A stretch of 64,000 nt of DNA, taken from assembly GCF_014138285.1 (NCBI RefSeq), contig NZ_JACGXN010000003.1, forward strand, positions 1 through 64,000, in the 5' to 3' direction. The DNA comes from Phyllobacterium myrsinacearum (GTDB lineage: Bacteria; Pseudomonadota; Alphaproteobacteria; Rhizobiales; Rhizobiaceae). The translations under genes and the position numbers were made by a program. Of the stretch, positions 32,715 to 34,522 are shown piece by piece (position 1 is the first letter of the stretch; every line of letters starts with the position of its first letter). The notes under the pieces were generated by a model. That model did not search any database, was not told the origin of the DNA, and was given only the letters and a program-made list of their open reading frames with translations.

Positions 32715-33905
32715 ATGGACCTTGACTTGGATGAGGAATCGAAACGCAAAGCAGCGCCCCGCCCGGCAACACCCGGCGGCAAAAAGTCTTCCGCTATCGG
32801 GACGCTGGGCAATCTCCTCGGTCGTGCCGGGATCAGAATCAACGGCGACGCTCCTTGGGATATTCACATCAACGATGACAGAGCCGCTAGCCGTATTCTG
32901 GCACAAGGCAGTCTGGGGCTCGGCGAAAGCTACATGGATGGATGGTGGGACTGTGCGGCGCTGGACATCTTCTTTGAACGGATATTCCAGGCCAATCTGA
33001 CAGAGCATGTCACGGCAAAGGATGTGTTGCAGACGTTAAAGGCACGTTTGCTCAACCTGCAAAGCAGCAGACGGTCCTGGCAAGTCGGAAAGGCGCATTA
33101 CGACGTCGGCAATGATCTCTTTTCAGAAATGCTTGATAGCCGCATGACCTATTCCTGCGGCTATTGGAACGTGGCCAATAATCTCGAGGACGCACAGGCT
33201 GCCAAGCTCGATCTTGTTTGCCGTAAGCTTGGCCTTCAACCCGGCATGCGTCTTCTGGACATTGGCTGCGGCTGGGGCAGCCTTATGCAGTTTGCCGCTG
33301 AAAACTACGGCGTTTCCTGTGTCGGATTGACTATATCCAAAGAGCAAGCGGAGTTTGCTCGTCAGAAGCTTAGCGGATTGCCGGTCGAGTTTCGCTTGGC
33401 GGACTATCGTTCGTTCAATCCGAACGGCGATGAAAAGTTTGATCGCATAGCGTCGATTGGTATGTTTGAGCATGTTGGTCACAAGAACTACGGTGCTTTT
33501 TTCGATGCGTGCAAACGTAGTCTGGTCGACGACGGATTGTTCCTGCTGCACACGATTGGAAGAAAACGCACCCGCAATGTCATAGACCCCTGGTTTGATC
33601 GTTATATCTTCCCTAATGGCGAACTGCCCTCCCTGAGTGAGATTTCCACCAGTGTGGACGGCCGCTTTGTCATCGAGGACGTCCATAATTTCGGCGCCGA
33701 CTACGATAAGACATTGCTGGCTTGGCATGCCCGATTTGAAGCAGCGTGGCCACAATTCGCATCCCAGTATGGCGAGCGCTTCTATCGGATGTGGCGATAC
33801 TATCTCCTGTGTATGGCAGGATGTTTCCGGGCTCGCCAGATACAGCTTTGGCAAACTGTCCTGTCTCCGTCGGGAGTTGCAGGAGGTTATCTGCGGCATT
33901 CCTAG
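32715..33905 (+). CDS. cfa: Cyclopropane-fatty-acyl-phospholipid synthase
   Basis: A 396-residue S-adenosylmethionine-dependent enzyme that adds a methylene bridge to unsaturated acyl chains of membrane phospholipids. The N-terminal lipid-binding part contains GSLGLGESYMDGWWDCAALD. The catalytic part has HYDVGNDLF, MTYSCGYW, the SAM motif LDIGCGWGSLMQFAAENYGVSCVGLTIS and SIGMFEHVGHKNY. The C-terminal block is YYLLCMAGCFRARQIQLWQ, where E. coli Cys354 is replaced by Met and a Cys stands one position earlier. The ATG at 32715 has GGGAG seven bases upstream; a TTG at 32664 is less likely. Confidence 0.95.
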   Translation: MDLDLDEESKRKAAPRPATPGGKKSSAIGTLGNLLGRAGIRINGDAPWDIHINDDRAASRILAQGSLGLGESYMDGWWDCAALDIFFERIFQANLTEHVTAKDVLQTLKARLLNLQSSRRSWQVGKAHYDVGNDLFSEMLDSRMTYSCGYWNVANNLEDAQAAKLDLVCRKLGLQPGMRLLDIGCGWGSLMQFAAENYGVSCVGLTISKEQAEFARQKLSGLPVEFRLADYRSFNPNGDEKFDRIASIGMFEHVGHKNYGAFFDACKRSLVDDGLFLLHTIGRKRTRNVIDPWFDRYIFPNGELPSLSEISTSVDGRFVIEDVHNFGADYDKTLLAWHARFEAAWPQFASQYGERFYRMWRYYLLCMAGCFRARQIQLWQTVLSPSGVAGGYLRHS

Positions 33906-33975
33906 AATGCGGCATCTCGATTCTCACTCAGACAACAATGCGACAATTTGCATAGCTAATATGCAACTTTGTATG

Positions 33976-34003
33976 TTGCCCTAAATTTGAGCGATGCTAT
34001 CTT
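33976..34003 (+). promoter_or_regulatory. Candidate promoter of the sRNA
   Basis: TTGCCC at 33976-33981 and TATCTT at 33998-34003, spaced 16 bases, would place the transcription start near 34010, exactly at the first hairpin of the sRNA. The fit to consensus is moderate. Confidence 0.4.
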
Positions 34004-34009
34004 GTGATT

Positions 34010-34119
34010 GTTAGGTTCTTTCCTCCCAGAAATCCTAACGCTTGATGCAACAACCTCCTCCCTGTTGCATTTACAATCAAGGCCCAACGCACCTCCTCCC
34101 GCGTTGGGCCTTTTGTTTT
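34010..34119 (+). ncRNA. Small RNA with three anti-Shine-Dalgarno CCUCC loops (alpha-r14/cuckoo type)
   Basis: Three consecutive hairpins follow one another. The first (34010-34039) has stem GTTAGG/CCTAAC plus TTCT/AGAA and loop TTCCTCCC. The second (34045-34070) has stem ATGCAACA/TGTTGCAT and loop ACCTCCTCCC. The third (34081-34110) has stem GGCCCAACGC/GCGTTGGGCC with the same loop ACCTCCTCCC, followed by TTTTGTTTT, an intrinsic terminator. Loops that expose CCUCCUCCC are the mark of the alphaproteobacterial alpha-r14 (NfeR1) and 'cuckoo' sRNAs, which pair with Shine-Dalgarno sequences of many mRNAs to repress translation. The assignment is from structure and loop sequence; expression is not shown. 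Identical loops in hairpins 2 and 3 with different stems argue for selection on the loop. Confidence 0.82.
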
Positions 34120-34268
34120 AGGGCCATGCCTAATCGCGACAACTGCATTGTTGCATTAAGAATATTCGACGCAATCATTCCTCTTTTGACGCTCTTTGTG
34201 TTTTTTTCCGCGTTTCCACAACCTATGGTATAATCCACGAGGTGATGGTTTCAAAAAGGAGAAGTCCT

Positions 34269-34442
34269 ATGCAACTAAGCGCACCAACAAAGATAGTGTT
34301 TATAATCGCGGTTATACTGGCTGTGTTATCGGCGCTTCCGGTCATTGGAATAGCAGCGGGTGTTCTTGGCGCTTACAGCTACTGGTTGTTGCTGATTGCC
34401 TTTATCGTGCTTGCAGCCGGCAGCCTGTTCAAAGGCGTCTGA
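34269..34442 (+). CDS. Small membrane protein of unknown function
   Basis: A 57-residue protein starting MQLSAPTKIVF, with AAAGGAG eight bases before the ATG at 34269, an excellent ribosome site that makes translation very likely. It consists almost wholly of two hydrophobic helices (FIIAVILAVLSALPVIGI and YWLLLIAFIVLAAGSLF) with a short turn between. I recognise no function; similar tiny two-helix proteins are widespread in Rhizobiales. It lies just downstream of the sRNA terminator and has its own transcript. Confidence 0.7.
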   Translation: MQLSAPTKIVFIIAVILAVLSALPVIGIAAGVLGAYSYWLLLIAFIVLAAGSLFKGV

Positions 34443-34522
34443 GACGACACTGGCGATGAAAATCGCCGTCCATCGATGCGACCAATTTAGAATATCAGGA
34501 AAGGCGAATCTCAAAGCAGCAA

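Follow-up and report, generated by a model that had tools for sequence, protein, structure and literature searches.

NfeR1 of S. meliloti is reportedly a transcript of about 115 nt that stress and symbiosis induce, and the SmelA075 and SmelA099 RNAs are said to have been named 'cuckoo' RNA by Reinkensmeier and Giegerich in 2015. The ar14 family, of which NfeR1 is a member, is described as carrying an identical CCUCCUCCC motif in all three hairpin loops, and NfeR1 is activated by LsrB (PMC10746234). In Brucella, VtlR activates DUF1127 genes and AbcR2 (PMC12595884). Here we describe a further ar14 gene from Phyllobacterium, a plant-associated soil bacterium; our search of the literature on ar14 together with Brucella or Phyllobacterium showed, among the papers listed, nothing on this RNA.

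Results and Discussion

The original prediction, made from a 64-kb window (the whole stretch of DNA analysed, 64,000 nucleotides), had proposed a small RNA of the alpha-r14/NfeR1 type. A covariance search of the window bears this identity out and delimits the following parts.

34004-34116, plus strand: ar14 small RNA gene, full-length match to Rfam RF02344 (model positions 1-123 of 123, 74.5 bits)
34009-34040, plus strand: hairpin 1, loop region TTCCTCCC at 34020-34027
34044-34071, plus strand: hairpin 2, loop ACCTCCTCCC at 34053-34062
34079-34119, plus strand: hairpin 3, stem-loop 34079-34112 with loop ACCTCCTCCC at 34091-34100, then TTTTGTTTT

The match has an E value of 1.4e-11 and exceeds the gathering cut-off of 58.8 bits; no other Rfam family reaches its cut-off in the window. 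The RNA at 34004-34116 is a true member of a known and experimentally studied family. The three adjacent hairpins that had been claimed are indeed present: 34008-34117 has a predicted folding energy of -41.1 kcal/mol, compared with a mean of -17.6 (sd 3.1) for 200 dinucleotide shuffles, none of which folds equally well (z -7.5). Hairpin 3 runs, as predicted, into the T-run TTTTGTTTT, and the two together form a probable intrinsic terminator. A terminator rule applied to the plus strand at 33800-34500 called none and is uninformative here, because its upper limit for the loop is 8 and the hairpin 3 loop has 10. The claim that all three hairpins present anti-Shine-Dalgarno loops stands for loops 2 and 3, which are fully open, and less so for loop 1, which is shortened and weaker: it is part paired in the minimum-energy fold, with 5 of the 7 bases of its motif unpaired, and open in the centroid. 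The identical CCUCCUCCC is accordingly found in two of the three loops, the first reading TTCCTCCC, and the curated RF02344 model accepts the sequence despite this deviation. CCTCCTCCC occurs twice in the window, both times inside the ar14 gene (0.33 expected; 2 of 100 shuffles reach 2); TTCCTCCC alone is unremarkable, with 3 occurrences and 1.89 expected.

Around the RNA gene we placed the following features.

32718-33905, plus strand: cfa, cyclopropane fatty acyl phospholipid synthase (NF008686, 600.6 bits), upstream neighbour
33948-33966, plus strand: conserved palindrome TTGCATAGCTAATATGCAA, candidate regulator site, centred about 52 bp before the presumed transcription start
33975-33980, plus strand: putative -35-like element GTTGCC, read from the sequence, with a 16-nt spacer to the -10 box
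33997-34002, plus strand: -10-like element CTATCT, read from the sequence with the alphaproteobacterial consensus of PMC8844928
34269-34442, plus strand: open reading frame for a hydrophobic membrane protein of 57 aa, downstream neighbour (all 3 orthologous loci)

The GTTGCC/CTATCT pair roughly fits the alphaproteobacterial promoter signature CTTGAC-N17-CTATAT (PMC8844928) and would set the start of transcription at about 34009. A promoter-like pair had been foreseen; it stops 6 nt short of 34009, where pairing begins, and not exactly at the hairpin as stated. A scan for E. coli-type promoters on the plus strand at 33800-34500 found none and is uninformative. The placement between cfa and a small membrane gene was correct, and the 57-aa protein has no Pfam or NCBIfam match.

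The own genome (G000; 5.97 Mb, 40 contigs) contains five ar14 genes above the cut-off, and each of the 20 genomes of the genus, own included, has 4-7 matches. In a wider set, 43 of 59 genomes have a match (35 of 59 above the cut-off), and none of 14 controls has one. We sorted 101 genus matches into groups by their flanking DNA. The genus search with stricter filters had also given 101 matches; those sorted comprise 100 fetched ones and one weak match of the own genome, and they include one AbcR copy (L043) and one weak match (L081, 32.9 bits). Several copies per genome with divergent stems are found: groups 0, 1 and 2 occur in 20 of 20 genomes and groups 3 and 4 in 15 each, the count of 15/20 for group 3 being perhaps one too few because the fifth match of G005 is absent among the matches listed. 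A sixth ar14 match of the own genome (C8:43632, 30.2 bits) was rejected; it scores 58.7 bits as ar15/AbcR, above the cut-off of 40 for that family, and adjoins a LysR-type gene.

The locus under study is group 5, present in 3 of the 20 genomes: the own one, Phyllobacterium sp. T1293 (G012) and Phyllobacterium sp. OV277 (G016). All three share the downstream DNA (membrane ORF, AraC-type gene, family-4 glycosidase). Of the two flanking genes for which conservation in relatives was in question, the membrane gene thus adjoins the RNA in every orthologous locus, but cfa in only two of the three, the own genome and G012; in G016 the genes upstream of the RNA are different ones. The G012 locus is carried by plasmid pT1293c (397,619 bp). 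The gene table of this plasmid as distributed contains no RNA genes at all, so it is uninformative on whether the RNA was annotated. The own contig, C3, has no RepC match.

By our reading, the nearest group to group 5 in sequence is group 4, and copies of this kind at other places make up groups 6, 9 and 11. We refer to these five groups as subtype D, which comprises 22 copies in 18 of the 20 genomes. The three group 5 genomes have no group 4 copy, and G004 and G013 have neither and no subtype-D match. The group 4 copies of G007 and G014 are on chromosome-sized contigs beside a DUF1003 gene, and the contig of the group 11 copy of G014 is equal in length to a named plasmid of P. zundukense. Subtype D looks accessory, because three other classes occur in 20 of 20 genomes, this locus in 3, and on a plasmid in at least one of them. 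We rejected the idea that the five genomes lacking group 4 have an empty chromosomal subtype-D site. All five have the DUF1003 gene and no TCCTCCC in flanks of about 1.5 kb, but homology stops at the DUF1003 gene, so that the site itself is not seen.

The predicted conservation of the loops is borne out within subtype D, in which 21 of 22 copies have ACCTCCTCCC as loop 2 and again as loop 3, and TCCTCCC is found in hairpin 1 of all 22. The stems show compensating changes: changes on both sides that keep the pair affect 2 of 6 positions in stem 1, 8 of 8 in stem 2 and 5 of 10 in stem 3. For these counts hairpin 1 was parsed in 22 copies and hairpins 2 and 3 in 21 of 22 (L116 excepted), and identical rows were counted once, giving 6, 7 and 5 distinct rows for hairpins 1, 2 and 3. 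One stem 1 pair is broken in 2 of 22 copies, and pair 10 in one stem 3 row. A single one of the 7 hairpin 2 rows breaks 7 of 8 pairs, which we take as a probable register slip in the copy with a longer loop. The MAFFT alignment, which shifts hairpin 2 between subtypes, was left out of the pair counts.

Copies of other kinds came up as well. L081 (G007:C1:2979893-2980008), which has altered loops, and L074 and L076 (group 7) are divergent ar14-like copies and possibly relics of duplication. In other genera of the family and the order, two ar14 copies lie a few hundred bases apart (L144, L151, L161, L162, L168, L172). L148 (G025:C2:250697-250814) is the single ar14 match in a genome of the same family, whose size of 1.1 Mb suggests a reduced, host-bound relative; upstream of it lies a subtype-D-like palindrome (10 of 12 bases).

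The palindrome at the locus under study has the form TTGCAT-N7-ATGCAA and starts 49 bp before the -10 box. This distance is fixed: 15 of the 18 group 4 and 5 copies have the same 49-bp offset and one has 50 bp, with no box found by the pattern in two. A dyad with at most one mismatch occurs within 300 bp upstream in all 18 copies compared with 4 of 1515 background segments, a figure that is descriptive because the pattern was derived from those copies. In the own genome the extended pattern has one exact match and one with a single mismatch. We then built a weight matrix from the 18 boxes and scored it against background regions. Among groups not used for the matrix, the top 1% of the background is reached by 18/20 copies of group 0, 15/20 of group 1, 5/20 of group 2 and 0/15 of group 3 and, among the remaining subtype-D copies, by 0/2 of group 6, 0/1 of group 9 and 1/1 of group 11. 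Boxes related to the palindrome precede three other ar14 classes (groups 0, 1 and 2). In group 2 the box keeps the identical 49-bp offset from the -10 element in 20 of 20 copies, and the group 2 rows shown in the flank alignment carry TGCA-N6-GCA(A/T); the LsrB box of NfeR1 is TGCA-N6-GCAT. The subtype-D palindrome is a different though related one at this offset.

Two published motifs allow a comparison with known regulators. The VtlR/LsrB consensus GCAT-N3-TG-N3-T (PMC8844928, PMC7486931) is found exactly within 300 bp in 19/20, 19/20, 11/20 and 0/15 copies of groups 0-3, in 0/15 of group 4, 1/3 of group 5 and 114/1515 background segments; our palindrome misses it by one base, with TA for TG. 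The Brucella VtlR motif (PMC12595884) agrees in at least 12 of its 15 bases with 2/20, 19/20, 19/20 and 0/15 copies of groups 0-3 and with the AbcR copy, compared with 0/18 for groups 4 and 5 and 31/1515 for the background. Groups 4 and 5 reach 9-11 of 15, a common background value, and groups 1, 2 and AbcR mostly 12-14. Because of these matches groups 1 and 2 fit the known VtlR/LsrB regulon, as does group 0 if judged by the first motif. For subtype D, a link to LsrB/VtlR is suggested just by the resemblance, position and spacing of the palindrome.

Which protein would read this palindrome can be argued in two ways. It misfits both published VtlR/LsrB motifs, and it also fits a looser one: TGCATAGCTAATATGCA agrees with TGC-N11-GCA, the NtrC motif quoted for the NfeR1 promoter (PMC10746234). 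It could hence be an NtrC site, or the site of a regulator other than LsrB/VtlR. However, the NtrC site of that promoter is placed at -101 to -116 (PMC10746234), and our palindrome is centred at about -52, close to where the LsrB site of abcR1 is reported, -61 to -49 (PMC8844928); the group 2 box at equal offset speaks against this reading as well. We consider a regulator of this different kind somewhat unlikely. What we tentatively propose, at somewhat less than even confidence, is an activator of the LysR type that most likely resembles LsrB/VtlR.

A related box, TTTGCATAGCTCTTATTCA (L220, G000:C7:223033-223051), with a -10-like CTATTC at the 49-bp offset, precedes pdhA of the own genome (TIGR03182, 517.9 bits). 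Each of the 19 genus genomes searched has a single close variant of the box, and in 7 of 7 genomes fetched a PdhA-like ORF starts 85 nt after the box start. Our search of the literature on LsrB and pyruvate dehydrogenase in Sinorhizobium met the phrase in reference lists only. One may speculate that in Phyllobacterium a single regulon under one LysR-type (LsrB/VtlR-like) regulator comprises AbcR, pdhA and four of the five main ar14 classes, with subtype D as its mobile, plasmid-going member. We regard this as unlikely; if true, a whole family of ribosome-site-masking RNAs would be fired together with a central carbon switch.

For possible targets, we counted GGGAGGAG-N3-9-ATG in the own genome and obtained 28 sites (27 distinct), compared with 3 for the reversed pattern. 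This excess partly reflects ordinary Shine-Dalgarno sequences. After removal of one duplicate, five ORFs below 60 aa and two without a Pfam match, 20 Pfam-supported ORFs remain that start at such sites. Nine of these 20 are transport genes, the class reported for NfeR1 targets (PMC7143759, PMC8844928). In S. meliloti, ntrB is the proven target of NfeR1. Here, pairing with the ntrB start region is poorer than the median for base-shuffled copies of it (-8.3 vs -11.5; simple duplex energies over 80 nt, start codon assumed), so that ntrB does not look like a target of this RNA.

We think it likely that the main picture holds: an ar14 trans-acting RNA with its own promoter and terminator, and masking of ribosome-binding sites. 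The LysR-type activation is the least certain step, at somewhat less than even odds. Most likely the RNA works as its relatives do. A transcript of about 109 nt would run from its own sigma70-type promoter to its own terminator, and its CU-rich loops would pair with the G-rich ribosome-binding sites of many mRNAs and so block their translation, presumably mainly where these encode transporters and periplasmic binding proteins. A LysR-type protein, most likely of the LsrB/VtlR kind, may bind the palindrome at 33948-33966 and switch the RNA on.

The gene could instead be intact and silent or nearly so, a duplicate that adds little beside the four other ar14 copies. Since northern blots gave reliable detection of only one of the six S. 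meliloti copies (PMC7143759), the copy at 34004-34116 may be silent as well; its presence in so few genomes, the shortened loop 1, and the fact that G004 and G013 do without subtype D altogether point the same way. This is nevertheless rather unlikely in our view, given that the palindrome, the -10 box, loops 2 and 3 and the stem pairing are all kept, with compensating changes relative to group 4. That the element is merely the terminator or 3' untranslated region of cfa, with no independent RNA, is very improbable. The RNA does lie downstream of cfa on the same strand, and other own ar14 copies also sit 3' of coding genes, a DUF1127 gene for groups 0 and 1 and a phasin gene for group 3 (the group 0 copy of G014 shows no DUF1127 gene in the flank alignment). 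But the gap of about 100 bp holds the promoter-like pair and the conserved palindrome, and the OV277 locus has no cfa. We judge it equally far-fetched that the RNA acts as leader or attenuator for the membrane-protein gene downstream: the gene does follow it in every orthologous locus, yet group 4 copies lie elsewhere, beside the DUF1003 gene in G007 and G014, hairpin 3 resembles a terminator, and at least two Chelativorans loci have the membrane ORF with no ar14 match within about 4 kb among the matches listed.

Conclusion

In summary, reading the raw sequence can recover an RNA of a curated family that protein-based annotation would not show. What is new with this locus, namely subtype D, its occurrence on a plasmid and the shared upstream box, are modest additions. 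They extend ar14 by a subtype that changes its genomic location and moves onto plasmids, and the box, if it is read by one regulator, would connect most ar14 copies, and pdhA as well, with a LysR-type protein.

Compared with ar14/NfeR1 itself (RF02344; SmelC397/Smr14C2 in S. meliloti), the locus shares the full-length covariance match, three CU-rich anti-Shine-Dalgarno hairpins, several copies per genome and a conserved motif upstream of the promoter. It differs from S. meliloti NfeR1 in belonging to an extra subtype that is plasmid-borne in a relative, in a loop 1 cut to TTCCTCCC, in a more symmetrical palindrome with TA for TG, and in having no evident target in ntrB. The SmelA075 and SmelA099 families (PMC3927594) likewise present CCUCCUCCC in hairpin loops, in their case in every loop, on variable stems and in multiple copies per genome. 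CcsR1 of Rhodobacter (RF02791) has the CCUCCUCCC motif in common, but our RNA stays below the cut-off of that model (38.1 vs 65.3 bits). The Rhodobacter RNAs follow ccaF1 (PMC12501420), as other own ar14 copies follow DUF1127 genes, whereas the copy under study has no DUF1127 gene alongside. AbcR/ar15 (RF02345) has CU-rich loops too, and a VtlR/LsrB-type box lies upstream of one of its two own copies; it is a separate family, and both of these copies are located elsewhere.
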